Of a DNA stretch of 64,000 bases, positions 33,016 to 62,769 are shown in pieces. Under the pieces are notes generated by a model. That model was not told where the DNA came from. It saw nothing but the letters and a program-made list of their open reading frames with translations, and did no database searches. Each line of letters begins with the position of its first letter. Position 1 is the stretch's first letter. The stretch is from Sclerodactyla briareus (Eukaryota; Echinodermata; Holothuroidea; Dendrochirotida; Sclerodactylidae): NCBI GenBank assembly GCA_026419785.1, contig JAODTK010005562.1, positions 124,001 through 188,000 of the forward strand, written 5' to 3'. A program made the position numbers and the translations under genes.

Positions 33016-33030
33016 TTATTATTATTAATA

Positions 33031-33061
<31 letters not shown>

Positions 33062-33082
33062 CATAATAATTAATAATAACGT
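33016..33082. repeat. (ATA)n/(AAT)n microsatellite
   Basis: About 65 bp of ATT and AAT repeats. A shortened, altered image lies near 45710-45770. Confidence 0.9.
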
Positions 33083-33179
33083 AAAATAACACGAGGGACA
33101 TACAATAGATTCTGGCTAATCGAGCGTAAACGACCTACCGGGTGGGTCGATGATGGAATGGGTGATTTTATTTCTGATA

Positions 33180-34450
33180 TATCAGGACCGTTGCAGTTTA
33201 CATTCTGGGCTTTGAAAGCTAAAAGCAACAGTTTTTAAATTTCAATTTTCACCTTCAACAGGAAGCAGTGTATATATACAAAAATGAGGGCTAATATTGG
33301 TAACGAGTGAAATATGCGCCGCTGTGTGTTGGATATGCTGGAAGCGTGGAATTTGAACCTGGCAGGCATCCTCAAGAGAGAAATTGCGTAGTCCACTTGG
33401 ACGAACCAGTAAGCCTGGACGATTGACTCAGTAGCATAGGTCTGGTCAAGACTTGCTACAACAGCCAATGTTACGTAGATGATAATTAACAGATGCAAAT
33501 GGTTGATATATGGCGTTCATATGTAACGTGAGAATCGCCGTGAACACCAAGATCTTCAACAGAAACTGAATAATTCACCAGCCATTTCCACAATGTTGTA
33601 TTTGTCGGAATTTAGCTGGATGGGCACTATCTAGAGGAATTCTAGACATTACTTTCGTTTTTTTTTTTCCCTCGTCAAGCTTGAGTTTGTTGTTGCGCAT
33701 GAATATTCTAGGCTTCTCACTGCCACTGGTCCAGTTTGTTTCTGTGATACCCCCACCATTCTCACTCTGATTGGTGCGGGTCGGAGCTAATGTATCATTG
33801 TGTGTCGCCTGCATATTCTGATTGATGAGGACACCCATTGCACGGAAATATACGCAGGAGACTTCATATACATTGTACACAGAGGTAATCTCTAGACCGA
33901 TCCCTGGGGTGCTCCAAACTGTAGATGCGTTTTAATTGAGATGGGCGTCACCTATATAACCACACGGGGTTCTAATTTCTAAATATGAAGGAATCAATTC
34001 AACGCAGTACCGCGCGTCCAGCAGCGGATGTTTCTACCTACGATGTAACTATATGTGTTCTATAGTGTCAATGCGGCGGACATCCAGCAGCACGTACAAC
34101 ATAACCACTTGACGTCTATCTAAAGCATTTTGAATTTCATCTTCAATGAACGTAAGTTACCATATTCTATACGCTGATTGGGTTTGGAATCAATCAGTGA
34201 GTTTATGGTCAGATGTTCATTCAGCTGTTTTCCAACCGCCCTTTCCACCAACCCCTTCGCGAGAAGGGCAAATTGAAATAAGCGGCGGTTCGTTCGCCAC
34301 AAACTGGGTCCTTTATAGAAATGTTTTTCAATACGGGGGGTAATTGAGCCGGTTTGCGACAAGGTGGCACATACCCGACTCATATTATATAAGTCATTAA
34401 CGTAGTTATTTATCCTGTCATGCTTGCACGACATGATTTTGTCGTACAAT
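33180..34450 (-). mobile_element. CR1/L2-clade LINE, reverse transcriptase fragment
   Basis: Minus-strand motifs in order: LLAKGLVERAVGKQLNEHLT (about 34325-34265), the fingers region; a THLQFGAPQGS-like motif (about 33935-33905); an NQYADDT-like catalytic motif (about 33815); NNKLKLDEGK (about 33695); VNYHLRNIG (about 33490); then IQHTAA, SPHFCIYTLLPVEG and KTVAF (about 33325-33200). This is the classic CR1/L2 series. Several stops and frame breaks; about 1.3 kb retained, 5' part lost. Stretched image at about 45900-47530. Confidence 0.8.
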
Positions 34451-35254
34451 CCTAAGCGCTGTAACCGTGTTAACGTCTTTCCGAAGAGCCTGGCTGCTTT
34501 TGCGCAAATTTCGCAGGTTGAGAGATCCGAGAGAGTCCATTGCTAAATTCAAAGCGAATGCGATAGCCGCCTCAAGGGGAACTGCGTTGGTCCTGGTGAT
34601 AGATGTCACAGGGGTAGGTATAGTTGTTTGTCCGTTTGTATGGGTAATTGAGCCCATATGCAGCCACAAACGTCTGTAATACTACAGTTGGCCTGCCATC
34701 GCCTTCATTCGTTCATTTGCATACGTTAAATGATTTCGTCAATATTTTGTTTATGTCTCTCAAAATAATACTGTAGCCAATATGTCTTTCCTTCCTTCCT
34801 CCCTCTGTATTTTTCTATTCGGTATAGCCCAGTATTAAAGTGCCTGTAATGTCCCATCTCCGCGTCCGTCAGTCTGTCAGGAATGATGCGATTGCTTTCC
34901 GCGAATTCGTTTCTACGGCGGTTCCCCATTCATTGGTGCATGTATGTGACACTTACTTCATTAGGTTTTTTGGATCAACCATTGTAGATGCCGCACCGAA
35001 ACCATTTCATATGATCAGTTTTCCCTTGAGATCATGGCCATTGAATCCATTTAGTGCAGTTGTTTATCTCAGCTCTGGGACCCAACCGACGTTTCTTTTC
35101 AACACTGTCATAGGTTGAATCCTGTTCTCTGGGGACGAAGCAGTCTAGACACTCACTCCCCTCCCCCATCACTATCCAACATTTGTCCAAGTTTGCATGG
35201 TAGCATACAGCGTAGTCTTCTGCATGGATCCGCAAGAGTACTGGCTTAAGAGGC
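34451..35254. other. Non-coding, inner end of block A
   Basis: No gene seen. From 34688 on the sequence matches 55798 onward imperfectly. Confidence 0.5.
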
Positions 35255-35265
35255 GGGGGGGGGGG
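35255..35265 (+). repeat. G-tract, copy 1 (11 G)
   Basis: The same site has 19 G at 48563-48581 and 37 G at 56381-56417, in the same flanking context ('gtaagag' before, 'cccccaa' type sequence after). Confidence 0.8.
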
Positions 35266-35619
35266 CTTCAACACCCCCCAAGCCAAATATTTCAGCAAAA
35301 TTAGGGCAGTGCGCGATAGTTTTTTTCGGACACCGACTAAATATTAACATTAATTTTTTCGGGCAAATCACTACAGCCCCCCTATATATGCATCGTGCTC
35401 CTACGCCCATGAAGAGTAACCCCCTGTTACTGCGATGCTTGGGGAAAATCCGGTTGCCGGTAATTAATAGTCTTGTGACAATCGGTCGACTGATGATCAT
35501 ATCATGGCCACATCCTAATTTTCAACTCGCTCATATACTGTTAATCACTGAGTCATCGGGAACCCCCTAGAACTGACTCGGCAACGAAGATTTTATGTCG
35601 AATATACAGCCTACATTCG

Positions 35620-38600
35620 CCCGGAATTTTAAGAAAGTGTGTTTTCAGTTGGTCCCAAGTTAAACCTGAAGAAAGGGAGTTTTGCCCCGTAGTCCCCCAA
35701 GTCGAGTATCCAGTGCAACATGGGAAAAGCCCTAGCCAAGTTGCAAGGAAAGCGTGGCCCGATCATCCCCTGAAGCTACCCGACAATTAGGCCAACTATT
35801 GATAAAGCCATTTGCTGGTCCCTTGGACAACTGGTGAAGAACGCAACCGTCGACCCTTTTGGCCATTAACCGGCCCAAACGAAAACCCGTCTTCAAAGTA
35901 AGATTGCCCCGAAGAAACCGATACGATAGTAATAATCCGTCAATGAGAAAATATGGTTCCTTTTTTTTACAAGTTGATTTTGCCGAATTAAGTTCCCCTT
36001 TCCTCCCGTTCCCGGCCAAGTTCCACAGAAAATGATAAATGTTTCCCCACTTTTAAATGTTTTTTTGAATTTAACAAAGAAAAACAAAAGCAAAATTTAC
36101 TAAGACAAATCATGATGTTGTAGGGGGTTTTTGGGGCATGTTAGAGGTTGATTAACGGTGCATTAGCTCTTGAATACACCGCAGAAAAAGAGGGCTTTGA
36201 AAAAGAGGCTTTGGACTTATAGCCGGTTTAATGAAGAGGATTTTTTTTTGAGTGGGAACGATATAGTCCTCTGTCCCCCGCCCTGCAGAAAACGCCCATC
36301 CAGGACTACTGTTGAAGATAGAGAATAGCTGGGTTGAACAGGCCCCCTGTAAACTCACAATGAAAGTTGTGGCAGGCCCATTCAGTGGTGGCTTGTCATA
36401 TGATGCCCTGAGGCCCCTCCCAAAGGGTGGGAATATAGGCCCCGGCAACCGTAAATCACCACCCTTAACTACAATAAATGAGGTTAGGGCAAATGGTTTT
36501 TCCCCCATTGAACCTGGGGGCTTTCTCAATCAACTGTTAACAAGGGTAAAGGTTGACCTTTGTGTAAAAAGTTATCTAACAGAGGTTGGAAAACTGATGG
36601 GTCATTCCCTACAGAAGAGAAGAGCTTGTTAAACTGATTATAGCCCCCGGGGTAAACAATATAAAATTTGACATGCAAGTTTGGCGCTTTCAAAGCCAGG
36701 GTTTCGAGTACTATTGTGAAAAAACCTAAAATTTTTTTTTTTTTAGCCAGGCAAAGCTTTGTTTTTCAAAAGAAGTATATGTAAAGAAACAAGAAAGTTG
36801 TAATTGTTTTGCCCCCTTCTTGAACTTGGAAAACCTGCTTTTTTGACAGTCCCCACGGCGGGGGGTTATTTTTTGGTGGGCAAATTCTAGATTGGGTTGA
36901 GGAATGGCTTTTCCTCAGTTTTGAGGTCCCCCCCTCCCTCCTGGTAATGATAATGCCTAGAAAGCCTGTGTTTAGTGTTTAACAGTGTTTCTACGGTGGT
37001 AACCAATTTTTTTTTTGCTTTGTGAAAGTGCCCTGGCGTACAACAAAGGCCCTCGATTCCCTGAGCCCTGTTGGTTTGTTCATCATGTTTTTTTTTTGAA
37101 AGCTTTGGGTCCTCAGTGGGAATTTAAATTGGTTTCCCCATGGGAGATTTTTTCCCCCCCCTGTACTCAGATTGATCCTTTTGTTTTTGGCTGATCGCTG
37201 GAGAAGTAATGGAAAGGAAGTTTTTTGTTTTTTTTTTTTTGTTTGAAATTTGAGAGATGGAAGGATGGCAAACTAGATAGTTAAAAGGAACTTTTGAAAA
37301 TTTTAACATGAAAGAAAGACTAAAGTTTTATGGTCAGCAGTTAACTGACGGGTTGGCCCCCAGTCCGTTTTTATCTTTCTTGGCAATTGGCCCTGTTTTT
37401 TTTTTCCTATTGGTAGTAAAGGGGTGTTGGCCATAATTTCCCTCCTATCTACTGGCAAACATTGCACAAAACGGCCTGGGGTGCCTAAGAAGGTGGCAGT
37501 GTTGTTTTGTTTTAGTGACAGTTTGGAATGCCTTTTTTTTTAGATTTAAGTGGTAATAAAGTGTAACAGGTTTGGGAGTTTTAGTTAGAGTTAGTAGAGA
37601 AATTTACGAGCAGCCCCAGAAGTTCCAATGGTTGCACATAGGTTGAAGGAAATAACCCTGAGGTCAGTGGATATGTTTTTTTTTGTTTGGTTCTTTTTAG
37701 GTGATAGCCCTTAAATGCCCCGCAAGTGGAGCAAAGTGGTTTCAGTGTTTTCATGGCCTTATTATAAACTTCGAAAGTGGGTTTTAGAAAATGCTCAGTC
37801 CCTAGAGGTGTTTCGCGTCGTCAAAATAATGGGAAGGATTTTTTTCCGAGGCTTGTTCATGATGTCCCCATGCTTCTTTATGGCAGTGAAAAGACCCTGA
37901 GCATTAAAAAAAACAGAAGACTCGATTAAGAGGACAGAAATGAATATGGAATATTCAGAGTGAATATTTTTCGCCTTGAAACCCTCTCCGAAGTAAATAG
38001 GCAGTGCCCTTTGATGAGCTGAGAAGATCCGTTTTTTGGGCTTTTGCTAAATTTTTAGCGAGTAATTGTTCCCTGGAAGTCCCGTTAAGATTTGAGGTGG
38101 TTTTGGACATTTGTTCCCGAAAGATTGCAAGGATGATTAACTGGGGTTAAAAGAAGCTCAGGGAAGATTAAATGTGACTTGGCCCGGCCGGGGCACAGAG
38201 GTAAAGTCCCCGGAAAAAGACCTTGGGGATGAACGGTTTTATTTCGTATTGGAATCTTTTTTGCATCAGTTTTTTTTTGGTAAAGAGGACCCGTGGCCCT
38301 CTTGCCATCAATAAGATGGGTGAAGTTGGAAAAAAAGCGGCCTTGCCCGTCGGAGACCCCTCCGTCCTACCATGCTAGCCTGGAAATTAATTGGAACGAT
38401 AAAACTGGTCCCCCCCTAATTAAGTTTTGTTGAAGTCCCCCGTCCACCCCAAGAAGAAGAAAGAAAAGCCTACGCCCAATGGAGTTTTTTTTTTTTGCCG
38501 CCTGCGCCAAGAAAAAACATATAGGAAACGCCGGCCGGGGACTACACGGACTTGGCGCCCCCTTAAGAAGTTGGAGAAGCGTGGGCGGGTCCTCCAAGGT

Positions 38601-41600
38601 CTCCGAGACCGCGGTCCCCGCTACGAAACGTTCAATTTCGGACAAATTTTTTTCGTACCGCCGACGCCCCGCCCAATTTGAAACGCAGTTGTTTTGACAG
38701 CTTTTTGGTTTGCCGTTAGCAGTAGGTCAGTAGTGAGTAGTATTAGGGTTTTTGTTTTAGTCCCCCCTCCGTCCCTTACCTTTCCGAACCATTGCTTTCA
38801 GTGATCATTCTCCCGCCACGGTAAAATCACGAAATCTTGCCGCAAGTTTTTTATTTCTTTCCCTGAAAACTTTGTTGAAATGTCCCCCCTTGAAATTTGC
38901 CGGAATTTTATTTTTCCCTAATCAAGGGTAGTCCACAGGTCCTCTCAACTGGGCTTAGTTAACTGGGGGTTAATATGTCCCCCCCTTCAAATTGCCCTTT
39001 TTTCTCTCAGAAAAAAGCGATCTTTCCGCTGGGAGCCTCCTTTTCTTGGAGTCCTCCCGGACCTTTGAACTTTGAATCTCAAACGTTCTAATGTGCTTCC
39101 TAGTACGGGAGACGCCCAAAAAGGAAATTTTGGTTTTGATCCACAAGCAATAGAGTTCCATCGTTTTTTTGGTATCCCCAGTTTTTTTTTTTTTTGTTTT
39201 TTTTTATTGGCCTGCCTGCTGTTTTTTGAAAGAAACATGGGCGAGTTGAGTCCCTTCTTTTGGAAGTTGCAATTTTTTTGTGATCAAGAAGTCCTTTCCC
39301 GTTGGTTTCCCCACAGTTTTTTTTTTTTCGCAGTTTTTTTTGTTTTTATCGAAAATACTCTGTATTAGGGCTCGGAAAAAATCCGGAGTGTTTTTGAAAT
39401 AAACTGCCCCTTGTAACTTACTCGTCGCTCTTGAAAAATTTGGTGGGTTGATTAGAGTGGTTTTTTTAAAAAGGGCCCCGGTTTGTTGGGTATACCATTA
39501 CATTAATTCCTGTTTTTTTTTTAAAAATGGCCCCCTTTTTCCTTTTTCGTTCCCAAAAAAAACTTCCTACTTTCACATTTCTTCCCAACTTTTTTTCAAT
39601 TTGCCCGTGTCTGGGAACGAAATATACTAACAAACTCCATTTTGGACCCGTAGCAACCAGTCCAGCGGAGCAACAATGCAACTCCCCCCTGTTTGACCGT
39701 AGCGGGAACAACCCCAATGAATGGGCGAAACCGGAAAAAATCCCGCCCCTTATATTGTTTTTGCACGGAATACGTAATAAAACCCACTGACATTCAGCCA
39801 TGGATTTGTTCAGAGGTAATTCATTTTCACCTTCTCCCGTCGAAGTTGATGTTTATTGCCTGAATTAACCCAATTTCCCCTGGAATTAGGCAAATTGAAC
39901 CTGCTGGTATTGAAAAAGGGGGAGAAAGAATTAGGAAGGTCGGAAAACCCCAAATGAAAGCCGCTTGGTGGCGGTCCTTTTTTTTGACTTACAAATGCGG
40001 AAGGAACTTCTTTAAATTGACATTTAATGACCCGTTCCCCCCCCTGCTGGTTTTGAACTTAGAATGAAAGGCCAACATCCACTTTTTTTTTTTAGCTCAA
40101 ACACCTATGCTTTTGGTTTGAACTTTTTTTGTTAATCCCGCCCCGTTCAATTCTTATCTACTTATTCCCTGTTGTGTAATAAATTGGACTTTTTTGGTTT
40201 CCCCCCACTTGCCCCCTTTAGGCTGCCCCAATTGATCAATCTTTTGATTGATGTGACCCAAGAATAACATGATGAATCATTTGACCCACCTTAGGTAACA
40301 TATTTCTTAAAAACCCTTGTGGAAATGTCCAAAGGTCCAAAGGTTCATTTAAGCCAAATCACTGTGGGCCCCTTTTTTGTAAAAACACATTAAAACAAAA
40401 TGTATCTCTTCCCTCTACCCAACAAGCTTAAAGATTTGGTTCCCCCCCCCCCCCCCTTGAAACTCCGTCCATAATGGTTTTTTCATTGGTTAGCGCCCCT
40501 TCCCCTTCAGATGTAAAACACAGATTTTTTCGATGGAAACGTCACCCCCCCCATATTCAAAAAACTTCATGGCCCATTAGAGTTGGAAACAGTAACATCG
40601 TGAAAAGAAAATTATCATAGGCCCCCCCCCGCCCTAACAGTCCCCATACCCTTTTGAATGAAGTGTGGAACCCCTAACTTTGGAAACATGTTTTCAATGG
40701 ACCCCTTGGACCAAACTGTTTACCCTTTGTGAAAGTCCCCAAGGCAAAGGTTATTAAAGCGGACAATAAGGGGCTATTTTCGTTTTACAATCTACAAAAT
40801 GCCCTTTTTTTTCCCTTCTCCTGGCTATGCAGCGGACTTGGACCCCCCTGGTTCTCAAATGGCATTTCTAATGTTTTTTTTCCCTCCAAATAGTTGCTAT
40901 CCCTTCAGGACAATTGTTTTTCCCACAAAATTTTTCCATGTCATGTTATTTTGAAGAGTAATTTCCATTGGAAAAGTTGAAACAATTTTCCCTGAAAAAT
41001 CCTTTTTTTTCATTTCTCCCATACTTCACTCGGAGATTCTTACCTCGCCAATCTTAGCTTGCGAGTTGAAAGGATCTACCCCCCTCGCAAACCTCTACTT
41101 GTACTGGTATGCCGCGGGTTCTTTTCGGAACCTCGTTAAATATACCGTAAAATAACCAAGGTTAAGAGCGGAACAAAAACCGAGGAGGAAATTCTTTATT
41201 TAGCCGGTTCACATAACCTTTTTGACAGCCAAAAAGTTTACGTGTTTGTACATTCACATTAACCAAAGTCCCCTGTTTTCCGAGAACGGCAAAAAAAACT
41301 CCATACTTTGTAAAAACACATGCAACCGCGAAACGTAAGACGTAACACGGCCCCCCGGAGCGAGCGGATTTCGCGGCCCGTTCCCCCCCCCCCACTCGAA
41401 AATTTGACAACCACTTTGGATAATTTTCTCGTTCCACGGCAATAATCATGGGGAATACTCCCTATAGTGGAATTTTGTTAGTACAGAATATTATTATTAG
41501 AGATAATTCAGAATTTCATCATGCCAGATCGGGGAGCAATAATTCGTGGAACCAAGGTTTTTTTTTTGGAGCAATTTTTTTTGGCAAAGTCGAATGTTTA

Positions 41601-44600
41601 AGGCCTAAAGGTTTTTTTTGTTTTTCGTACTTTCGTTTTTCGTCGCGTTTTGAACGTGGAAGACCCGATATATACCTGTTGTTTTTTTTTTTATTTGTTC
41701 CTAGGCCCTAAGTAAATTACGAATTACTTCCAAAGCAACAAGGTTCCGGTTAAGCCCTATCTTGTACGAATATGGTTTTTTTAAAAATCCTTGCCCGATT
41801 CGGCAAACAATTTGAAAAATCAGCCAGATATATTGAAACAGCAAAAGAGTTAAAAGTGGGTTTGATTACAAACCATGTTTTTTCAACCAAAAGATTGCTC
41901 GAAATCATGTTTATTTGCCCAAAGGGTGGTCTGCAAAGATATTCCACTTTTTTTTTTCTATCTAGGCCTCAAGTGGGGGGGGTGGGGTTCCCCTTTTTTG
42001 CATAATCAATAGCAAAAGTTTTAGGCCTAAAATAAGGCTTAAGCCTACCTGCTGGCTACCTTTGTTTTGGGGAATTAATAGGGCCCATTGGAAAAAATTA
42101 CCATTCTTTAAGTTTCCTCCCTCATTAATTTCACACAAAAAATACAATTTTTTTTGCCTGGAAAAGGAACATTTACCATGTATGGCCCCCAGAAAAACTG
42201 TTTTTGCCCGGTTTTTGAAAAAAGGAATTTTTTTCCCGGCCCTTGCGGCGACATTGCACAACTTAAGCTTGGGGATGGAAAGCAGACAGTAACAAAAAAA
42301 AAATGGCCATGTGGGTAGTCGGGGTTAATTCAAATCCCCTTGGCAAAAATGTTTTAAAAAACCCACTTTTTTTTTTGTTTTCCAGTCCCACCTTTTGTTG
42401 GGTACAGTATTTTTTTTTTTTTTTTTTTTTTGCAAATTGCACTCCAGTTGGAGAGGCCCCCAGGGAAAGAAACAAACTTGGGCTAGAAGGAGGCTGTTGA
42501 AATTGGTATTAGGGTTGGGGTGGTTCCCAGGGAAAGTAAGGCAAAAGTTTGGGGTGAAAAGGTTTACGGTTAAAGGTTTGTTAGAATTTTGTTCGGCGAA
42601 ACAACAAAATTTTTAATGAAAACCCCCCCCTGCAAAATTGGAATTGACCCTCTTTTACTCCTAGCTCACTCCCCGAACAACTTTGGGTCACACTTAATTT
42701 TAATAGCTCTCCAAGTAAACACATGAGGTAACACATTACATTATGCCAAAATAATGGGTTTCGTTGTTTTTTTTTGTGTTTTCCGCCCCCCTGAAAACTG
42801 ACAAACTTTCTTTTTTTTAGCAGAGTTCCCCTCTGAAACGGTTGAAAGCCCCCACTTTTTGTTTTGGAACGCAATTTTGTGTTATCATTCCAAAGGGGTT
42901 TGGGTGGACACAACCTGAACTTTAGTTTTTTTCCTTTGGCCCGCAAAAACAAACCGCACTATACAGGAAGGGTTAATTGGCCCCCCCTATTTTTTTTATA
43001 ATAATTCCTTGTTTTTTTTTTTTTTTTAAGCGTGTTTACAAAGAATAACAGAAAAAACCGTAAACGGCTATGGGAAGAAACTTGGTTGGGCCATTGGGTG
43101 AAAAAAGTTGGAGGGTCGAAATGAACTGATTTATATTTAACGCGTAAAACATGCTAAGTAAGCCTTGCTAATTTTTGCTCATAATTTTTTATGTTTTTAA
43201 TTTTTTAATTTTTCCAGTTTTGTAAGAGTTTTCCTTCAACTTTTAACGTGAAGTAATGGTCTAAAATCCAGTCCCCCCCTTGACAACTTATTTAACGAAA
43301 AATGTAGCCAGGAATTTTCAATGGAGTCAATTCAATGTTGTTTTTAACTTTCTTGAGTTTTAACTCCAAAAAGCATGAAAGTGTTTCGGTTTTTTTTTGG
43401 TTGGAAATTTTTCATGAAACCTGGTGGGGTAATGTTTTACTCAGTTTTTTTTTTTCCAAAATTTTTTTCAATCATGGGATTTCCGGGTCACTTGGAGGTA
43501 ATTCCACATACTCTCCTCTCTAATCTTCGATATTTTTATGCAATAATTCCTAAAGTTTGCCCGAATTCCCCCCATGAACTTTTTTGGAGGGGTTTAGGAC
43601 TTTTTTATCCTTACCTACCTTTCCCAACATTGTTTGAAATGAGACCCTGGGAAGTGTTTTATTCAGTTTTTTTTAGTCCCCCTATTTTTGCAAATAGTTT
43701 TTTCCATTTTCCCAAATTTTTTCAAAGTTTTTTACATTTCTAAATGAGCTTTGATGCGTTTTATGGTCCCCCTCCTTTTTTCATTTCCCCATTGTTTTTT
43801 TTTTTTTCCATTGAACTCGAGTCCCCACTTGGGGGTATTCATTTTGGCCAAACTATAAAATTTGGCTTCAATTCCATAAATGTTTTTTTTTTTTCAAGTT
43901 GGTAAGATTCCCAAGAAATTGTGTCCCCACTAAGTGGCATCCCCACCTGAAACATATATATTTGAAATGAAGAAAATGGGTCATGAAAGTTTTTTTTTGA
44001 AATTATTGTTTCTATTTGCCATAAGTCAACATTTTCAATGTCATATTTTTCCCCCAACAAAAACCGTGTACTCCTTTCGGTTTTAGACATGTTCCATCCA
44101 TTTTTGTGTCATGTTGGAATTTTTTGGAAAAATTTGTTCACTGGGTTTAGTAAAGCCTTTTTTTTGTTTGCCTATAAAATTCTTAATAATAAAATTCTGG
44201 GGAGCACGACCCTGGATAATTGCCTTGTCACATTGGGTTGTGCATTGGTGAACCTAAACAGAAAAACCATTTGATCTGCAACCAGTGGGGACAACTTGGT
44301 GATCCGCCGTTGTTAAAAACCCCTTGGAAACCATCTTTTCTGAAACAGTTGAAAAGTTGTTCTTTAACCAATAAAACAGAATGGCCCTAAATATCCCCGA
44401 ATTACGCGGGAGGAACCCCCCCCCGTATCAAATATGTTTCATTTTTTTTACTCCATTAATTTCAAAAACCTTTGGGGGAAAAATTTTAAAACACAAAAAA
44501 CTAACAAAATTTTTTTTAAACCTACAGTATTCCAGTTAAACAGTTTTTTTAAAAGCCCCGCAATGGAAAACCGCCCCCTGTGGGTGTGAGTTTTTTTTTT

Positions 44601-47600
44601 TTTTTTTTTTTCCGTGGTTAAACACAACTTCCACAATAACAGACATTGTTTTTTACTGGGGAGTCTTCATTCTGTTTTAGACAGTAAAAATAGGCCTCAG
44701 GCCCAAGGGCCAATACTGGCCCAAAAACTAAATTTTTCTTTTGTGGGTTTTTAAAATGCCCCCTTTGAGTTTCCAAACCTACTTGCCCTTTCTACAAAGT
44801 TTTTAGCCACAAACCGTTCCCACCCACTTAACCCCCCCATTCCCCAACTAAACCTGTATTCCTGGATGTTTTTTCGGCCAACCAACGGCCTTGGATGGTT
44901 TTTTTACCGCCCCCCCCCCTGCCTTAAAAAAAATACCACATACTTCCCTAATTCCCATTCCCCATGATGAACCGCGCTTACTGCCAATATACGGGGTTGA
45001 ACCTTGTTTTTTTCCTAAAAACCATAGAAACGCTCCGAAAATTTTCTCCGATACAAACGCCCCACCCAATAAGAAAGGCCCAACGTGGGTATTTGAGCCC
45101 CAAGAAAAAATTGTTCCAGCCAAGGGCTTTTTTAAAAAGACTGTATTCGTTATTAAATTTTTTTTTTTTTCTATAAACTCAAGGTGTGGTGTATGAAGTC
45201 CTGAGGTGCTGGAAACAATAACCATCATTTGAAAACCACAATTCAATGCTAGTTCCCCCACGAAAATAACGAATTCAAAACAGCATCCAAAACAAAATGA
45301 AGTTTCCCGTAAAACGTCAAATGCCCTTTCCTTGGGTTTTTTGATCATTCTGAAAGGGGAAACTATTTATATGAGAAAATTTTAAATTTGAAAGTTTGGA
45401 GCTACAAAGCACCAATTGGTGCTCTTTTTTTTTTTCAAATTTTCCTCAAATCCTCCCTGGAAAAAATGGGTTTTTTGAGACCGGTTTTTTTTTTTACCTT
45501 CAATAGAGTAGAGTGTTTTTTTCCAAGAATTAACCAAAACAAAACCCAAACTAAAAGATGGCTTTGGGAAGCCGTGAGAAACTTGAAAAACTCCGCTGTA
45601 ACTCAATAGACGCACCTCAGCCCCTTGTGAAAACAAATTTATCCCCCACTCTCCAGTAAAACAAACGCCTTCCAAGTTTGCATGTAATTACGGAGCGGGC
45701 CCTCTCTAAATTATTTATATATAATAATAAACTATCTCATAATTATAATAAATAATAATAAATAACATAAAAAGACCACGAGGGACAGACAATAAGATTT
45801 TTCTGGCCTAATCCCTGAGCGTAACGACCTACCGTGTGGGGTGTGTGGGTTCGAATGTAAGGGTGGAATTTTTTTAAATTTTTTCTGATATCTTCCAGGA
45901 GCATGTTTTTGGCGTTTTTACAGGTCTGCTGTGGCTTTTGAAAAGCTAAAAAGTCACAGTTTAAATTCAATTTTTCCCCTTCCAGAAAGCCCCATTTAGA
46001 TCATCCAAATGGGGGTGGGGGGGGGGGGCCCCTAATATGGGTTTACTAGTTGAATAATAAATAATAATGCTCGCACTTTTGGTTTTTTTAAGTTTATTAT
46101 TTTATTGTTTAAGCTGGTTGGTTAATTTTTTGACCTGCAAATGCATTCCCGTTTAAAAACAGAGAAGAATTGTGCAATTAGTCCCAGCCTTGGGAAACGA
46201 AACAGAAGCAGACCGAGTGACTCATTACAGAGCCCCTGGGTCAAAAACTTTCCTACAACCAGCCAATGTTACCGTAAAGATGAATAATCTCAGAATTTGG
46301 GCAAAATGGTTTTTTAATCTGTGGCCCCGGTTTTTTTCAAATAATTTAAAGTGGAGAAATCGAAGTGAACACCAAGATCTTCAACAGAAAACTGAATAAT
46401 TCAAGGCAGTAAAACCCACCCAATGTTTGAATTTCCGGGAATTTTTTTTCGCTGGAGGTTGGCAAACATAATCTAGAGGAATATAATACTTTGCTTCGTT
46501 TTTTCCCTCGTCCCAACTTATTTTTTTTTGTTGTTGGCGCGTGAAATATGCTTAAGCTTCCTCAATGCACAACTGTTTTCCCAGTTTTTGTTTTTTATTT
46601 TCCTGATAACCCCCACCATATCACTATGATGGTGCGGGTCGAGCTAAATTATATTTGTTGTGTCGCCCCTGCCAATATGAGTGATAGGAACACCATGGCC
46701 TAAGGCAATTTACCGCAAAGGGCCTGTTTCATATACCCATTGTAAACATAGGGGTTTATCTCCTAGTAAACCCGAATCCCTGGGGTGCTCCAAACTGTAG
46801 ATGCGTTTTAATTGAAGAATGGGGCGTCCCACCTAATTAGAAAACAACCACGGGTTTTTTTTTTCGATGGTTTTTTCCTAAAATAATTGAAGGAGACTTC
46901 ATTCACTCATACCGCCGTAAAAAGCGCGGATGTGTTTCTTAAACCTAACGAAAGTGTTATAATTAACTGTTTCGATAGTGGTCAAATGCTGTGCGCGGAA
47001 CAAAGTCCAGCCACAAACGTTACAAACATAACCAACTTTGACGTCTAAATCTACAACCATGTTTTGAATGTGCCCCATCTTTTTCAATGAAAGTCGAGTG
47101 GGGGACCAGAAATCTAGTACCGCTGGGATTTGGGTTTTTGGAATCAATCATGGAGTTTTAATGGGTTCCAGATGTCAATTCAGCTTTGTTTTTTGTTTTC
47201 CACCGGCCCCCCCCCTTTTGTTCCCAAACCCTTCCCCGAGAGGAAAGGGAACTTGTAAATAATGCGGTAGTTCCGCTCACACTGGGTGTTCCGCTTTAAT
47301 AGAATGTAATTTTTTTTTTTTTTTTTCAATACGGGGTAATTTGAGCCATGTTTAAAGCAAGTTTGGCCAAACCTACCCGGAAAAAGAAACGTCAAAATAT
47401 TAAAATGAAGCATTAAAACGATGTTTAGTTTATCCTGCCCCCCATGCTTGCCGCACTGAATTTTTGTCTAACAATCGCGGAAAGGCGCTTTGTAAAACCG
47501 TTACTTCTTTTTCCGAAGAGGCCCTGGCCTGCTTTTGCGCAGTTTTTTCGCAAGTTTTTTTTTTTGAGGAGAGTTCCCTAAAACATAGTCTTGCCTAATT

Positions 47601-50600
47601 TCAACAATCGAAAATGCCGAAATCGCCGCCTCAAGGCTGGAATCTGACTATGGCTGGTGATAGAAAATGTCACGGGGTAGGTTTGTAATGTTTTTGGTTG
47701 TCCGTTTGGTAATGGGTAATAAGGGGGCCCCATATGGCAGCCACAATACTTTGTAAACTACATTTTTTTTGCTGCCCAAATCGCCGTTCATGGCGTTTTT
47801 TTTTTTCCAGTTTTGTTTTTTTTTTTTTTTTTGTGCAGCTTACATGAAATATTTTCTAATATAATTCCACCTTTTGAAAATGTCCCCCCCTTCCCCCCCT
47901 CTCAAAATAAATTACTGTAAAGCCCAATATGGTAAACTTTACCTTTCCCTCCGCTCCCCCCTCTTGTTATTTTGTTTTCCTCTATTCGTGTTAGCCGCCT
48001 ATGCCCCCCCAAGTTAAATTAAAGTTGACCTTAACGGTTGCCCCAGCTCCCCCCCGCCGTCCGTCCCCAGTCTGTCAGGAAAATGGAAGCGGCGGATTTT
48101 GGGGTTTTCCCCCGGCGAATCGTTTTTTTTTCTACGGAGCGTGGGGGGGGGTCACATTTCTTTTGGTTTCATGTTAGTTGAAACTTTACTTCATTAGGTT
48201 TTTTTTTGGATCACCATGTAGGATGCCCGGCCAACAGAAAACTGCAAATCTGAATTTTCTGTTTGTCCCCCCCTTTGGAGATAAATGGCATTTGAAATTC
48301 CTTTTAGTGCAAGTTGTTTTTAAATCTCAAAGCTCTGGACACCTTAACCCCGGACTTTTTTCCTTTTTCACTGCATAGTTGATCCCCCGTTTTTTTCCCC
48401 TGGGGACCCCGAAAGCCATTTTCCTAAGAACAAACTCACCTCCCCCCCCTAATCCGCAAACAAGTTGTTTCCCAAGTTTTTTTGGCCAATGGTAAAGGCA
48501 TACATCGGAGTCCCCTGCTTGGCAGGGATTTCCCAAAGTTAAACATGGGCGTAAGAGGGGCTGGGGGGGGGGGGGGGGGGGTTGGGCAAACCCCCCCCCC
48601 CAGCCCAAATATTTTCAGCAAAAAAATTCGGGGGGAAGTTGGGGGCGCGTTGATAGTTTTTTCCGGCAAAACACCGACTTAAATATAAACAGTAAAAAAT
48701 ATTTTTTTTTTTTTCGGGGCACAATCACCTACAAGCCCCCCCCTATGATATAATCGGGCCTCCCCCTAAACGGCCCATGAAGAGTCAAAACCCCCCTGTT
48801 TACTTGAACCTGGCACAGATGCCTTTGGGGAAAATCCGGTTGCCGGTAATTAATAGTCCCTTTTGGTGGGAAAATTCGGTTTTGACCTTGAATTGATCAT
48901 ACATCATGGCCCCAAACATCCCCCTAATTTTTTCAACTCGGCCCTATATAACTGTTTCAAACTTTCCAATCCGGGAAAAACCGCCTAGAAAACCGGAGAA
49001 CCGGCAAACGAAAGATTTTTTAAAAAACGGTCGAATTAATAAACAGGCCCTACATCGCTATAACACGGTTTTTTTTTTTGTTAACCCCATTTTTTTTCTC
49101 ATTATAGAATATCATCCAGAACCCTATATTTTGCATGGTGCAAATTAGTTTTTATTGATGGCAATTTTCAATATCTAAACCTTGGTCTTATTTTATACAA
49201 CCTCCACATGGAAGATCATTTGGAGGCAAAAATGATCCTGGATTAATACCTGGTGGGGGTAAAGGAAACATTATAAATGGAACATCGGTTTTTGTAGCCG
49301 CTTAGGTAAATTTTTTTCTATCGGCAGTTCCAGTGTGGGGCTGGGTTGGTTGTCTTGGGCCAGTCTTGCTCCGTCCAGATTTCGTTTTGTTTTTTTTTCA
49401 TATTTCCTGAATGAAGTTTTTTGACCCAACATTTTTTGAGGAATTAATTCAGACCCTGCCCCGTTTTTTTTTTTTTTTTCCGTATCTTTTCATATATTTT
49501 TTTGGTTACGACCAAGGGAACGCGGTTCCCCTTTAACAGTGTTTTTTTTGAAAAAGGGGCTCGAGGCGAGGCCCCGGCCCTCGGCCCTCGAGGGCCCCGT
49601 TTTTTTTTGTTTTTTGTTTTTTTTTGGCGGTCCCGCCCCTCGGGCCCCCCGGCGGCCTGCGGGCCCTCGGACGGGGGGGGGAGGTCCCCCCCCCGCCCTC
49701 GGGATTTTGGCCCGAGGCCCCTGGACATTTTTTTTTGGGCTATTTAAAAATAAAGAACAAATGAAAATTTTAATGTCACGAATTGAAATGCTTTGTCAAA
49801 GGATTTTTTTTGTTTTGGGAATTTCGGCTGGAACCAAAATTTTTGAAAAACTAACGTACAATATGGCCCAATACTGTGTGTAATCACCCAAAAGAACTTC
49901 CCCGAATAAAATGGTTAATGGCGGCTTGCGCTCGGTCAGGCCCGCGCCGTGCAATTCCCCAGTTTGGCATGGTTAGAAGTCGCCTCGGCTGCGCCCCTAG
50001 GGAGCCTTTGCCCCTGGGTCAATCGAACATCTTACTGGTAATCTGATGCAACTTGGCACTGCAAAAGTTGTGCACATAAATACGCCACTAAAAATGTAAA
50101 ATAGCTTTTGGGGGGTTGTACAAAGCAAGCGAAATCCTGCATTGCGCGCCCCCACGTGTGAAACCACGCACTCACTGAAAAATCGCACCCTATAATGGTC
50201 CCGTAGTTGAGGAAGTTTAGCAAATGAATTTCCCCCCCCCCTAGTCTCCATTGCATAAAACCGCCGGACAAGCCTGACTCAACTAAATCGAAGAAGGTGG
50301 GTCGGTTTCTGCAGAATTGCGTGACATGTTTGTTTTTTAATTAAATTCAATATACATTTTATATATGTTTTAATCCTGTAGTTGGTGGTAAACATGGAAA
50401 AGTCCCCACACAAACAATTTTTAAATTTGAATTCATTTTCCTTCATGCAAAATTAAAACCCCACATATATGGTAAGGGGGATTATTGGGTCCCTGTTCTC
50501 CCCTTCGCCAGCCCCGGCTTGGCAGCCGTCAGCCCGCCCCGGACGAAGATATTTTTTTCCTTTTTTTAGCGCGCTGAAATAACTTCTCCCGAGTTCCGCC

Positions 50601-53600
50601 CCCCACTACACGAGGGCCCGGGCATATCCCTGAAATTTTTACGTTTAACTTTCTTTAATCGCTGATTTTTTGCCGGGTGTTTTTTGGCACATGGTGGAAC
50701 CGTTTTTCGGGACTAACCTCTCGTGGTTAGAGCCCTCAATGGAAAAAAAAAACCCCCAAACGCGAAATGGTTCAGTCATTAAATCGAGTGAGATCGACAT
50801 TGTCTCTGGTCCCTCCCCCGGCCCAACGCTGATTGCCTCAATAATTTTATATGCTTTTTTTTTGCTGGTTTACCCCCGCCCAGCCCCGATTTGTTAAGTT
50901 CAGGTTCCGAACTTTAGTCCCCCAAAGAAATCAATGCAAGTCCCATGGAACAGTTTGTTTGGGGTGTTGTGTGGGGTGTGGTTGTGTGTTGTGTTATTGT
51001 TTGGGTAATGGTGTGGTGTGGGTTGGTTGACGCCCCCCCTGGAATTTTGTTTTGTAACACGAATTAACTCGAACCTCCACCTTATTGGGATCCAGCTCAT
51101 ACTTTTGTAAATGGGGGGTGCCCCCCAAAATAATGGGAGTAAATAACCCTATTGTTTTTTTTTTTTTTTTTTCCGGGATCCCGCAAAAGTTCATCTGAAG
51201 GTTCCAACAAAAACTCAGGGCCAGTTCCCAAGGTTATCCACTAAAAGGCCTCTTGGGCCCTCTTCCCTTGGTTTTTGTGTGGTTTTGTTTTTTGGTTTTT
51301 TTTTAGTTTGGGAGTCCACTTTTAATGAAAAATGTGGATTATATCGAAGTTGAAAGTTTAATTTGCCCTTCCCTACCCCCAAAGGGAATTTTTTTACGAA
51401 GGTAACTTTTAAATAATTTAAAAATGAAAATCATATGTGTCCGTAACACACATTTTGAATTTGGATGGGTGCAGGTCCCGCTGCTGAAATTAAATCCACA
51501 AGCCTTACTTTGGAAAACCAGAGGTTGGCAGGCCAGAAACCAATCAGTACTCTCTTTTTTCTCCAACCAGATCTTGGAAAAATACTACTTGATGTTTTTT
51601 TTTTCCAAAAATGCAGTGCAGTTCCTCAAGCAATCGCATTTTTTTTTCTAGAATCTGTCAACCCAAAAAGTCACGATTTAAAATGTTCCCAAATGAGTGC
51701 CCCCCTCAATTGCAACTAAGAGGGAGCATCTAGAACCTACACAGCCTGCCAGGGCACCCCTGCTAATCGACCTGGGACCCACCTGCCTAAGGACCTTCAC
51801 GTGTTTGGTGGGGAAACATGTACCCTGGTTACTCCATCATGGGGAACAACACAATCAATTTAATAAGCCCTTTCACCTTTTTGGTAGAATCAAATGCTAA
51901 TCCGTTACAAATTTTTTTTGCTGTTATGGCATAAAAATGGTCCAATGTTAATTACGAGCAGTGGAAAAAAAAACTTTTTGTCCACCCGGCCCGTGGGCAA
52001 TTCATGCCAAACCCTCTTCAGGACAATTTACGTAAAAACACTGGTCCCCCTGTTTTTTCCCCCACAACTTTCAAAATCCGGTTGGTCCTATCGGGCCCTG
52101 TAATACCCAATAGTTAAAAATTTACCTAAATGTCCCAGTTTTTTCATCAGTTTGTCCCCCATTATTTTAAATTAATATAATAATGTTATTTCCTCAAATA
52201 AATTCAGTAAACATTTAAGATTACTACCTTGCCAAAATTGGTTTTCCAGTTTTTTTAAGTAACCTAAAAAGTTTTTTTTTTTATTGTGCTTTTTCTTCCA
52301 ACAAAAGACACGAGAAGTGCCCAATTTCCCGGCCATCGGGAAGGTCCCCCCCCTTGGGGCCCCAATGGGGGGGCCACTCCGCTCCAGTTGGTTCAACTTT
52401 TCAGACCAGGCCAAACCCCCATGATCCCTAATTGAAAATCCCTGTTGGCTTACGCCATAAAGCACAAAAACGAAGTCCCTTCTCGTTTTTTCAATAGATT
52501 GAAACACCAGAAGGTTTCCCCCACTATGGGGTCCCATTATTTCCCAAATGAAGGTTAAAAGGAAAGTTCGAAGGAAGTTCAAAGGTGGTTTTCACCAAAA
52601 ATTGTTAAAAAGAACCCTGCACAAACGAACACAATTTTTTTTCCATTAATGCCCACCCCCCCCCCCCCCCTAAACAAAATGTTCATCAGGAATATCTATA
52701 ATGAAAGTGAACAATAAAATTTCCCACCTTATTAAAACTACTTTTTTTTTTATTATGCTGCTTTTTCTCTCCAACCCACATACAACGAGAGCCATTTTTC
52801 GGCCACTGGGAGGTTCCCCCTTCTCGGACCAAGTCCCCCGCACTCACGCTTTAGTTTTTTTTTTTTTTTTTTTCAACGTGTTTTGAAAAACCTCACTTGC
52901 CCCCCCCCCCCATCCTCCCCCCCATACCCTAGGCCCAACCCCCCCCCCATTACCCCCCCCTAATGGAAAAACCCTCTGGCTACGGCCACTTTGGATGGAC
53001 GAGTCCTCGTCGTCCCACGAAAGAATTTGGGGGGACCCTGAATTAAACAGGTCATTTCAGGGTTTCAAATGAAGTCCAAAAAGCCTCTCAGGAAACTCAC
53101 ACCCCCCTCTAATTCCAGACCTCGCACGCACCCCCATGGCCCCACTTAAAATCCTCCTTTTACAGAGGAACAACCTAGAATTGCGTGTTGAATCGTAAAA
53201 GTGGTTTGTTTCTTAGTAACGATCCCGTGAATTTGAATTACTTTAGTTTGTTTTGCAGAAGCACCGGGGTCCCTGGTCCTCCCCCACAAAAAACCTGGGA
53301 AACCCCCCTAAGGTCAAATGTTGGTTCAAATATCAATCCACTAAAATGACGTTTTCACCGAGAACGAAAAAACGAAACATTCCATTGCGAACGCTCCCGC
53401 AATTTGAACTGTCCCCTTGTGGGGGGGGGGGGGGGGGGGGCCCCTATTGTTTTTTTTTAGCGCTTTTAAATGGGACCTTGACCCTGAACAACCTAAAACA
53501 AGAAAACGAAAATTTTCATCCCTCACTATAAACTTTGCAAAACCGACTAACATATAAAGAAACGTTGGAAAACAAACTTGCTATTCCTTTTACATAATCC

Positions 53601-55798
53601 GTTGGCTTGATAAGCCGGTTTCTTTTTGACTTTGCCAATGGTCCGTGACCTTTGAATTGCAACCAGAAAAGCCCAATTAGGGTTTCCATCCTCTTCCACC
53701 GAGGGCCCCGCCTACGTGGCCCCTATTTCGAAACACGATACCCTGCTTGCGTTCTTCAAATATTGGGTTTGTGGAACGCAGGGGGTTGGCGGCCCAACCC
53801 AATCAACACACGCCACAACCCAACAACACACACACATACATACAAACCACAGACACATCTAAACGCCAACAAAATTACAACAAACAACAAAAGCCACGGT
53901 TTGCAAAATGACTACAAAAGATTTTTCTTTGGCCCTTCGGCAGACGAATCCCGTATGGTTAATTTGGACTGTTCCGCGGAAGAATGTACGCAAAATATAA
54001 TCTCTGGTTTTTTGGGTTAGGAAATTTTAAAACCTAAACTCATATTTGTTTTTTTTTTTAAGTGGAATGGCCAATTTAATAAATTTTAGGAAACCGTTTT
54101 TTTTGAATTCCCACTGGGGGGGGGGGGGGAATGATCACATAGGCCCAAGCCCCCCAAATCAAAAAATATTAGGGGGATGTTTTAATGATTGTAAATCCTT
54201 CCATGAAACACCCCTCTTTTAATCTCCTTCCCCATTTTGCCCGGGTGACCTACGTCCCAACTCAATAATCTGATAATAGGTCCCCCCACTGAAGGACCAT
54301 TTTTTGCTGAATGTTTCATGGTTTGTATCCGCACAGCAACTCCGTTCCGGGAACGTCAAACTGGAACGTTCATTTGAACTTCAACGTCAAGATTAACATT
54401 GAATGAATTGAACAATAGGAAACCTCCACCCTCCACATTCCCATGGCTTAGTTCATACAAGGTCCAAGAATAAATTGTTTTCGTTTGAACGTTTTTGAAA
54501 TTGATAACTAAACAGTAAACGTTCAGAACGAGGGTTTCCAACTCAGATAGAAAGACTTTTTTCACTGAAAGTTTTGTTTATGGAACGAATACTTCCAGGC
54601 CTTGTTCTTTTGTCAACGTTTTTTTTGGGTAAAAGAATGTTTTGCCTGGGGTTGGGCTGAACGTTTTTGCGACTGAAACGTCCGTCCACCTGTGGTGAAC
54701 ATAAAACTCCCCAGGTGAAGCGACGCCGTTTTTTTTTTTCGAGACACCGTTTTAAATCCTACGTTTTTTTTACGTTTTCCCCACTGGAAACTAGAATTGA
54801 CCATTCGATTTGCCGGACTGGGGTAAAGGCCCCTACCCGAAATATGGTTTCCCCGCCCCCTTTTTTTGCCCGAGTATTTAGTTTAGTCATTTACGTCATT
54901 TTTAACAAACAATTCCCACTCTTGTTTTCCCATATTGCCTAAGCCTTTGCAATCCTAGAGTGAAAACTAAGGCTTAATTTTTGATAATTAACATAATATT
55001 CCCAAACTCACAGTGGCCATTGCCTAATTTCATTGCTGAATCCACATAGGCGCCCCAAAGAATAGAAAACCCCCAATCATTGTTTTGAGAAAGTATGGAT
55101 TATAGGCCACCAAAATAGTATCCATTTTGCATTTCCCCGGTTTAATGACCGAAAAAGAAAAGGGAATCTGTTTTTTTACTTGAACTATCATTTTTGTTTG
55201 ACGGCCACAAGTACGACGAGTTAAAGGTGGTGTTTTGTTTTTAATTTGTAAAAAGTTTTTAATTTATTCCTCTATTTTTGCCCCTGCCTTTAAATAATAT
55301 GATGCGATTATTTTTCGGTTGAAATTTTTTTTTTTGGGAAAGGCTCCTTTTGGTTGCAAGCTTAGAGGTTTGGGAAAATATTTTTAGGCAAGTAAAATCA
55401 ATTACGCATAGTTTTGCCCGTTTCCTTTTTTTCACTGCATTTCAAGAACATCCACTTATTCCGCTCAGTCCCCTTTTGCCAAGACAGGCGTGCCATGGTG
55501 GGTTAATAGTCCCCCCGCATGCATGAGAACGTCCGACAAATGATGAAGGGAATTTTGGCAATTTGCCCTTGACAGCTATTTTCCCGAACAATTGCAAGCC
55601 CAGTTTTGTCAGTACCAACTAATTGTTTAACTTTAATACTTTTTTTTTAATTGAACGACTTTCCCCCTGGGAGACATTTTGACAAACATTCCCTGGCATA
55701 AAAATTCGTTTCCACCTGGTCTAGGAAAACCCTAGTCCCCCGTCCCCGAGTCCCACTCGAAACCCCCCGAGCTTCCGCCGACCGAACTTCCTTCAAAA
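35620..55798 (+). other. Error-stretched duplicate of blocks A and B (probable raw long-read gap fill)
   Basis: This 20.2-kb block is colinear with A (25190-35620) followed by B (56755-61996), about 15.7 kb in all, but about 29% longer. Extra bases are scattered every few positions and are mainly T and C runs, with far fewer A or G runs. Anchors in the B part: 49510 with 57105, 50940 with 58215, 52320 with 59275, 53820 with 60420, 54117 with 60676, 55487 with 61742. Both outer borders switch abruptly to cleaner sequence. The LINE and repeat images inside are not independent insertions. None of its open frames should be taken as genes. Best explained as one uncorrected, single-strand long read placed in a gap between overlapping contigs. 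Confidence 0.92.
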
Positions 55799-56377
55799 GT
55801 TGGTCGCCATCGCCTTCATGCGTTCAGTTTGCAGACGTGTAAATGATTATCGTAATATTATTCTTTGTATGTCTCTCAAAATAAATTACTGGAGCCCAAT
55901 ATGTCTTTCCTCCTCGTATTTTCCTATTCGGTTATAGCCCAAGTATTAATAGTGACCTGTAAGGTGCCCATCTCCGCGTCCGTCAGTCTGTCAGGAATGA
56001 TGCGATTGCTTTCCGCGAATCGTTTCTACGGAGCGTGGTCATTCATTTGGTGGGCATTTATGTGATCTTCTTCATCTAGGGTTTTTTGGATCACCATGAG
56101 GATGCAGCACAGAAAAACATTTGCATAGATCAGTTGTCCGTGAGATAATGGCCATTGAATCCATTTAGTGCAAGTTGTTATCTCAGCTTCTTGGACACCT
56201 AACCGACTTTCTTTCACTGGCATTAGTTGAGTCTGTTTCTGGGGAGAAGCAGTCTAGGAAACAAACTCACCTCCCCCGCTATCCAAACAATTGTTGTCCA
56301 AGGTTTTGCATGGTAGGCATACAGCGGAGTCTGCTGCAGGGTCCGCAGAAGAGTAACAGGTGCGTAAGCCCGTAAGA

Positions 56378-56380
<3 letters not shown>

Positions 56381-56417
<37 letters not shown>
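56381..56417 (+). repeat. G-tract, 37 G
   Basis: Uninterrupted run of 37 G. The matching tracts at 35255-35265 and 48563-48581 are 11 and 19 G, so the true length is unknown. Confidence 0.9.
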
Positions 56418-56754
56418 CTTGCAACCCCCCAAGGCCAATATTTCAGCAAAAAATTAGGGCAGTGGCTGATAGTTTTTCGGACAACCGAATAAAATATTAA
56501 CAGTTTATTTTTCGGGCAAATCATCTACAGCCCCTAGATATAAGCGGGCTCTACGCCAATGAAGGAGTAAACCTACCCTGTTAGGATGCTTGGGGAAAAT
56601 CCGGTTGCCGGTAATTAATAGTCTTGTGAATATCGTCGACTTGTGAATATCATGCCACATACCTAATTTTTCAAATCCGCTATAGACTGTTAAATCAATC
56701 TCGGGGAAACCCCCTATAGGGGACGGGACCGGCAACGAAGATTTATGTCGAATA

Positions 56755-57125
56755 TACAGCCTAAATCGCTATACACGGTTACCCATTCATCCAATATAGA
56801 AATCATCCAGAACTTCATATTTGCAGGGCATTAGTTATTGATGCTGCATACAGATCTACTTGCTATTTAACACCTACAATGGGAAGATCTTGGAGCATAT
56901 ACTGATATACCTGTGTAGGAGACATTAGATGACAATCGGAGGTTGTAGACGCGCTAGTTTTCATCCACGTCAGTGTGGGGCTGGGGGTGTCTGGACATTC
57001 TGCCGTTCAATTTAGTTTTCAGATTCTGATAGTTTACCACATTTTAGGGAATTAATTCATAACCCGTCTATTTGTAATCGTATGCAGATATTTTTGTAAA
57101 CGACCAGGGACCGGTCTTGACAAGT
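56755..57125. other. No recognised feature
   Basis: Non-coding AT-rich sequence. Confidence 0.4.
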
Positions 57126-57245
57126 GTTGGAGGGGCTCGAGGCCGGCCTCGGCCTCGAGGCCAGTTTTTGGCGGTCCGGCCCTCGTCCCTCGCGGCTGGC
57201 GCCTCGGAGCTCCGGCCTCGAGTTTTGGGCCGCGGCCGGACAATA
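57126..57245. repeat. GC-rich block of nested CTCGAG palindromes
   Basis: CTCGAG occurs repeatedly with GGCCGGCC and GGCCTCGAGG, giving overlapping self-complementary segments within 120 bp, in otherwise AT-rich DNA. Stretched image at 49557-49730. Open frames across it are a by-product of base composition. Confidence 0.7.
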
Positions 57246-58210
57246 TTTTTTTGCATTTAAAATAAAGAAACAATGAAAATTTTTCTGTCCCGAAAATGAT
57301 GCTTCAGGATTTGTTTGAATTTCGCGACAATTTGAACTATACGTATATCCATACTCGGTATCACCCAAAACTGCCGATAAATGTACTGGCGCTGCTCTCG
57401 GCCCGCCTTGCAATTCCCCAGTGGCAGTGTTAGAGTCTCCGGCTGCCTAGCGAGCTTGACGGGTCATCGACATCTTACTTCCTGAATGGCCTTGCACTGC
57501 AAAGTGCACATATATACGCATATGTCAGCTTTGTGGTACAAGCAGTGGAATCCTGAACATGGCGCGGCCCACGTGAACACTCCCTCACTATCGCCCCTAG
57601 AGTCGTAGTAGAGTAGCGAGATGAAATTCTAGTCTCCATGCTAAAACTGCGCATAGCCTTGACCAATAAAATAGAAGAATTGGGGTTGGTGGTTTTTTTT
57701 TTTTCCCACGGGTTTTTTTTTTTTTCTGCATATCGTGAATGTGTTTTATAATTCAATATAAATTTATATATGTAGATCTGTAGTGTGTACATGGAACGTT
57801 CAACCACAATTATTATGATTCCTTATGCATTATATACCACATATATGGTATTATATTAGGGTCTGTCTTCGCCAGCGCTGCAGCCGCCGACGGAATATTT
57901 TTCTTGTTAGCGCGATAACTCTCCCGAGTCGCCACACTATCACATGAGGGGCGGGGCATATCCGGATTTTGACGTTACTTCTTTATCGCTGATTGCGTGT
58001 TTGGAAGCATGGTGATCGTTTTAGGACTAACTCTCGTGTTAGCCTCATGGGGACCCCACCCGAACTCAGTCATTATCGAATGAGATCGACATTGTCTCTC
58101 CCGGCACACGCTGATTGCTCAAATATTTGGATAATGCGTTGCTGGTTTACCCGCAAGGCGAGGGGAGTAGTTCATGGTCGACTTTAGTCAAAGGAATCTA
58201 GAGTCATTGG
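57246..58210. other. No recognised feature
   Basis: No coding, RNA or named repeat signal; contains two T-runs near 57693-57725 that look like sequence-quality artefacts. Confidence 0.4.
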
Positions 58211-58212
58211 AC

Positions 58213-58420
58213 AGTGGTTGCGGGGGGTGTGTGTGTGTGTGTGGTGTGGGTGTGTAGGTGTATGTGTGGTGTGTTGGTGACGCCTGGATGTTACACGATA
58301 ACTCGACTCCAACCTTAGGATCAAGCTCATTACTTGGTATGTGGTGTCCCCATTAATGAGTAATGATCCCTATTGGTTTCGGTCAGGTTAAAGGTCATCT
58401 TGAGGTCAACAACTGCAGGG
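58213..58420 (+). repeat. (GT)n microsatellite leading into a family 1 repeat
   Basis: GT-rich run 58220-58275 followed directly by 'gacgcctgg', 'cacgataactcgactcc', 'aagctcattacttggtatg' and 'taaaggtcatcttgaggtca'. It shows the usual left edge of family 1. Confidence 0.8.
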
Positions 58421-59190: not shown

Positions 59191-59229
59191 TAAGATTACT
59201 ATTGCAAAATTGTACGTTAGTATAAACTT

Positions 59230-60140: not shown

Positions 60141-60417
60141 TGAAATGTCTTGGGCCCTATGTTGAGCTTATTACCTTGCCCTGACACCTAAAACAATACG
60201 ATTCTCCTCCTCTATCGCAACCACCTACATAATAAGAACTTGAAATACTTGCATTCATTACCTATCGTGCTGATAAGCTTCTTAGACTTAGCCATGTCGG
60301 ACCTTGAATTGGCAACCCAGAAGCAATAGGGTTCATCCCCACATGACAACTACGTGCCTATTTCTAACACGATAATGCTTTGCGTTCTTCCGATAGTGGG
60401 TTATGCCCAGGGGTGCC
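60141..60417. other. Spacer, possibly part of a minus-strand repeat unit
   Basis: No gene. Read on the minus strand, sequence after the CA run shows 'ggcacccctgggcat', loosely like the left edge of family 1. Confidence 0.35.
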
Positions 60418-60508
60418 ACCCCCACACACGCACACACAACCAACACACACACACACACACACAACATACATACACGCACGCCACATATACGCACACAAAT
60501 AACACCAA
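60418..60508. repeat. (CA)n microsatellite
   Basis: About 90 bp of CA-rich repeats with CAT and CG interruptions; opposite in orientation to the GT run at 58220. Confidence 0.9.
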
Positions 60509-62180: not shown

Positions 62181-62187
62181 TATTGTA

Positions 62188-62400: not shown

Positions 62401-62439
62401 TATGACTCGTCGTTACAGGACGTGCAATTATTCATAATT

Positions 62440-62760: not shown

Positions 62761-62769
62761 CAAAGTTTG

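Follow-up and report, generated by a model that had tools for sequence, protein, structure and literature searches.

The window analysed here is a stretch of 64,000 bases of Sclerodactyla briareus DNA, written in A, C, G and T only and without any N. Its left flank (1962–24975) has ordinary base statistics (CpG o/e 0.40, TG/CA 1.31), falls into the 'clean' state of a three-state segmentation and is taken as accurate contig. An uncertain edge follows (24976–25186, the Viterbi edge being 24976); by the change point, the noisy part may start at ~24782 to 27105. Then come three segments, all in forward orientation and delimited by self-BLAST and alignments. Segment A (25187–35620) is the left part of a locus and itself of about raw-read quality, with ~11% error where it is measurable. 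The block (35621–55797; 35620–55768 in the segmentation) reproduces A plus B with heavy noise and spends 20.2 kb on a locus of ~15.7 kb. Segment B (55798–61996) is the right part of that locus and, where measurable, again of about raw-read quality. The end of A (34686–35620) overlaps the start of B (55798–56769, with a run of 37 G at 56381–56417), the two being ~22% apart. The remainder (61997–64000) lies past the reach of the block and is present in one copy only; from 62000 to 64000 it has a CpG o/e of 0.90 and a TG/CA of 1.02.

The other contents of the window are modest. It is devoid of long ORFs, which, like the depletion of CpG in the left flank, suggests eukaryotic DNA; no tRNA was found in it, no Rfam family reached gathering scores, and the 20 ORFs scanned of the 38 listed yielded no Pfam family at the cut-off. 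A GC- and CpG-rich stretch (1–1961) carries at its edge a perfect 51-base inverted repeat (1673–1723 and 1901–1951); of its four ORFs of at least 100 aa, three were scanned, with no Pfam match. An interspersed repeat family occurs at 1974, 2254, 10653 and 24175, with diverged copies near 4338, 13324, 15721, 16027, 16337 and 58262; a 29-base pattern of this family finds four sites at up to three mismatches, where chance predicts none. A 22-base repeat-family pattern also matched one viral contig, L001, of which a 416-aa frame spans the match. This we regard as chance, since BLAST at 1e-5 aligns no part of L001 with the window. The tandem pair 20371–20822 / 20852–21322 is 75% identical and probably a real old duplication, because its substitution pattern is ordinary (transitions to transversions 21:29). 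Another repeat pair, 18714–19776 / 26323–27361, is 66% identical and has a strong GC skew of 0.38–0.39. Finally, 62747–62976 resembles 31078–31323 with a score of 84 against a shuffle maximum of 47.5 and is perhaps another repeat. Weaker similarities, just above the shuffle maximum, link 62385–62456 with 59103–59168 (42 vs 38) and 62895–63060 with 13729–13888 (51 vs 50).

Self-BLAST of the window revealed how the three segments are related. On the same strand and with E = 0.0, 25258–35620 matches 35719–49058, 55873–62003 matches 47899–55809, and 34686–35620 matches 55798–56769, the latter at 79.7% identity. Edge alignments place the block edges within a few bases: homology begins at 25187 in A against 35622 in the block, the block end at 55797 falls at ~61996 of B, and the overlap of A with B spans ~0.93 kb (34686–35620 vs 55798–56769). 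The block (~20.18 kb) is a collinear, stretched copy of 25187–35620 followed by 56770–61996. The original prediction had seen A and B recur in order inside the block with about 29% extra length and had put their overlap at about 0.93 kb. All this was borne out; the length ratio of block to locus is 20,178/15,661 = 1.288 (block taken as 35620–55797) and the insertions extend through all bins. Its estimate that the true locus is about 15.7 kb shorter gives the size of one copy correctly, but not the surplus. The 36,810 letters from 25187 to 61996 exceed 15,661 by ~21.1 kb, because, besides the stretching of the block, the 0.93-kb overlap appears once in A and again in B.

The copies also disagree about the joins. 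Through 34686, A and the block continue, and B begins there; past 35620, B and the block share their continuation, while A passes over into the block's beginning. Two of three copies thus read straight through each edge of the overlap, which contradicts the joins at both. At 25187 and at 61996, a single copy serves as witness. Most likely, these ~37 kb are one ~15.7-kb locus written more than once, a false and non-biological duplication.

The block differs from A and B mainly by what it adds. Inserted, deleted and mismatched bases per reference base amount to 0.335, 0.049 and 0.071 against A, and to 0.332, 0.047 and 0.066 against B; the A figures, like the A event counts below, include columns from ~100 bases by which the alignment overshoots the true start, running into the end of A. 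Insertions outnumber both deletions and substitutions (0.33 vs 0.05 vs 0.07), and inserted bases exceed deleted ones by ~7 to 1. They occur throughout: each of the 33 half-kb bins has 0.23–0.44 of them per reference base, and the first bin includes ~100 bases of the over-extension. Typically, an insertion repeats its neighbour: this holds for 80% of 1,488 events against A and 80% of 872 against B, as compared with 40% and 42% of the opposite (deletion) events and with 54% and 41% of the indel events between A and B. T or C make up 2,212 of 3,531 inserted letters in the A comparison and 1,307 of 2,084 in the B comparison. The block is also set apart by its runs: those of at least five number 13–33 per kb (19 full bins, 36001–54001), against 3–10 in A (10 bins, 25001–34001), 2–11 in B (6 bins, 56001–61001) and 2–10 in the left flank (23 bins, 2001–24001), and the same-as-previous-base ratio is above 1.4 in every one of the 19 full block bins.

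Raw PacBio reads are described as having ~8% insertions, a total error of ~13% and over-represented homopolymer 6-mers, with A/C and G/T exchanges slightly elevated; in Nanopore reads transitions are elevated, insertions and deletions about equal and the total error similar to that of PacBio (PMC7671305). The substitution bias that we rely on comes from this one source, which itself grades it as slight. A contrary view holds that PacBio errors are random, free of homopolymer bias and ~15 times richer in indels than in substitutions (PMC4719071).

The mismatches between the copies are biased. Transitions to transversions are 181:568 for A/block, 94:321 for B/block and 7:38 for A/B, in all three pairs below the 1:2 of chance, and G/T plus A/C exchanges account for 409 of 749, 210 of 415 and 32 of 45 mismatches. 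The PacBio mark is present in all three pairs, the Nanopore mark in none. As a control, nine repeat pairs of the window gave 141:172, with 90 G/T plus A/C exchanges among 313; these pairs share copies, hence are not independent, and were aligned with a gap-opening score different from that of the block alignments. One of them (15671/58262, 4:16) has a copy inside B, and without it the control reads 137:156. Left out of the total were 20371/20852, already mentioned, 18714/26323 (71:87) and 59208/59576, which lies inside B (11:15); G/T plus A/C exchanges amount to 15 of 50 in the first and 42 of 158 in the second.

On balance, we take the block for an unusually poor read and its differences for sequencing errors of the PacBio kind rather than mutations. 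Its total error is far above the ~13% published for PacBio. Of course, the direct orientation and the order A, A plus B, B are also those of a real tandem duplication with a decayed middle copy. Such an origin is hardly conceivable. Decay would not lengthen a copy by a third through bases that mostly repeat their neighbours and are spread evenly over 15.7 kb, nor would it leave transitions fewer than chance, which is not how the repeat pairs of the window have diverged. The evolutionary change between copies that marks a segmental duplication is not what we see; the differences are of the read-error type. The earlier claim of an uncorrected long read in the block and of a false duplication is upheld by the excess of insertions, their repetition of neighbours and the bias towards transversions. 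By the latter two features, a pasted raw read can be distinguished from a real duplication on sequence alone. That the raw reads were made by Nanopore instead of PacBio is very improbable: the similar total error rates of the two platforms and the nearly balanced indels between A and B would suit it, but transversions of the PacBio type dominate, the block has the ~7 to 1 surplus of insertions, and Nanopore reads are described as rich in transitions and balanced in insertions and deletions (PMC7671305).

The original prediction regarded A and B as two accurate contigs. Their two versions of the overlap (911/947 bases), however, lie 208 edits apart (~22%). One difference event comprises 26 bases, and the distance without it is ~182; it fits the G run, 37 G in B and ~11 in A, which likely reflects a read error in A, B or both. 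From the distances to the block over the overlap, 430 for A and 431 for B, the A/B errors split into 104 and 104, ~11% each; the block's own share (326 edits) is set aside, as its segment was cut too late, and only the 208 and the 104/104 are used. The block can also act as arbiter. At 15 of the 45 A/B mismatches both alignments agree on one block letter that equals A's or B's, and it sides with B nine times and with A six times; where A has T and B has G, it votes six to one for B, where A has C and B has A, three to three. The A/B indel events are nearly balanced (68 and 51). At the 169 A/B indel bases, the block has the extra base at 107, a gap at 42 and another base at 20, which looks as if A and B tended to lose bases, as typical PacBio reads do not, although over-calling in the block inflates this figure. 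A three-way MAFFT vote was dropped, because its first ~120 columns were poorly aligned, the block segment having been cut too late; in this unused vote A was odd in 95 mismatches, 26 insertions and 30 deletions, B in 58, 11 and 5, and the block in 165, 217 and 36.

Outside the overlap, the match to the block is the available measure. For A it is 0.865–0.890 inside vs 0.909 in the overlap, for B 0.883, 0.883 and 0.912 inside vs 0.888 in the overlap. By these rates the interior of A is no cleaner than the overlap, and the same applies to B in two of three parts, although varying errors of the block could mask a difference. Our conclusion is that A and B, too, are raw reads; within the overlap this follows from the 208 edits and from the same mismatch bias, elsewhere we infer it. 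Accurate contigs A and B that truly overlap by 0.93 kb, with the block alone being raw, are accordingly quite improbable. It is true that noise is much stronger in the block than in A or B and that its run length is matched by neither, but the number of edits already contradicts this reading in the overlap, and 32 of the 45 mismatches there are of the sequencing-error type. An artefact, as had been proposed, is the right kind of explanation; the flanks were misjudged, A and B being noisy as well.

How far the noise extends is less sharply defined. On the left, the best change point is 24927, with a 2-log-unit span of 24782–27105, and the three-state segmentation puts its edges at 24976, 35620 and 55769. 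No overlap above 60 shuffles links the tail of the clean flank to the start of A or to that of the block. On the right, the sequence past 61996 has no match to the block end (score 27.0 vs a shuffle maximum of 34.5); it is unlike the clean left flank in CpG o/e (0.90 vs 0.40), hence the fill has no visible right edge. CpG statistics do not suffice to prove A and B raw and are taken as a hint only. The segmentation also called 1–1961 'noisy', despite the perfect inverted repeat there, and simulated errors of 11–24% raise the CpG o/e of the clean flank to 0.50–0.60. The 0.79 of A exceeds this range; its rise therefore is partly real composition.

In our view the window probably contains one ~15.7-kb locus in the form of three untrimmed, end-to-end reads of the PacBio type, with a gap closer as the most likely cause. 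A would be its left part and B its right part, while the block would cover it completely in a single read of very poor quality. A long-read gap closer would have bridged a gap between two contigs and, since noise hid the overlaps, retained left extension, spanning read and right extension, joining these reads or read pieces untrimmed. The start of the block lies near the possible noisy start of A (24782–27105), as would follow from a shared cut at a contig end; this is a weak argument, the interval being wide.

Alternatively, a long-read assembler could have failed in its layout and strung the same three raw reads together, or they could be unpolished contig ends, with no gap closer at work. 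This is unlikely. In its favour, the order and overlaps of A, block and B are those of three reads, contig boundaries have been reported to carry homotype false duplications about as long as a read (PMC8081667), and no clean right edge is visible. The objection, a weak one, is that the proximity of the block start to the noisy start of A becomes a coincidence, unless both were trimmed at one contig end. The gap-closer explanation has its own difficulties. The block's insertion rate is ~4 times the published PacBio mean (PMC7671305), so the block must be an exceptionally bad read. The indels between A and B do not display the PacBio insertion excess, and the 749 mismatches beside 1,852 indel events (A/block) are far from the ~15-fold excess of indels expected by PMC4719071. 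The window has no N, whereas published overfilled gaps stay unclosed (PMC3504050, PMC9635638). Nor is a right edge of the fill seen after 61996.

The structure is an ordinary assembly error of low biological interest. If the explanation is true, one locus has become up to three noisy copies, and the failure could recur at other gaps of the assembly. Gene models, repeats and duplications called within ~25–62 kb are unreliable, perhaps also those at other gap sites. Joining 35500 to 56800 restores the order; the letters on both sides stay unreliable.

Known systems offer partial parallels. With a raw PacBio CLR read (PMC7671305) the block shares the insertion excess and the long runs, and all three pairs share the A/C and G/T bias; the block's fourfold insertion rate and the nearly balanced A/B indels differ. 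In homotype false duplications one locus likewise appears twice, about one read long, due to boundary overlaps or sequencing errors (PMC8081667). The published boundary cases, however, are about as long as a corrected read and have a gap between the copies, whereas here the copies abut directly and carry ~11% error and far more.

A further parallel is a gap 'overfilled' by PBJelly. With this program, reads extend from contig ends into the gap, and a gap counts as overfilled if no overlap can be identified between the extensions of its two sides although their sum exceeds the predicted gap (PMC3504050). With corrected Nanopore reads, PBJelly left 28,377 overfilled gaps and a longer assembly, with 2.3% vs 2.1% duplicated BUSCO genes (PMC9635638). 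For simulated reads, the DENTIST paper gives mean identities of ~89–95% for PBJelly fills and ~88% for LR_Gapcloser fills (PMC8848313). The present case has, in addition, a spanning copy as third element between the presumed extensions, and no N is left. One gap holding a left extension, a whole spanning read and a right extension without N may, we tentatively suggest, be a failure mode not yet described, as judged from the parts consulted of the literature on gap closers and false duplications. As to the flanking contigs, the left one looks ordinary and the right side is seen in one copy only. What the two cases have in common is that flank extensions are kept without a recognised overlap and the assembly is inflated (PMC3504050, PMC9635638): A and B, presumably such extensions, overlap by 0.93 kb and yet stand apart.
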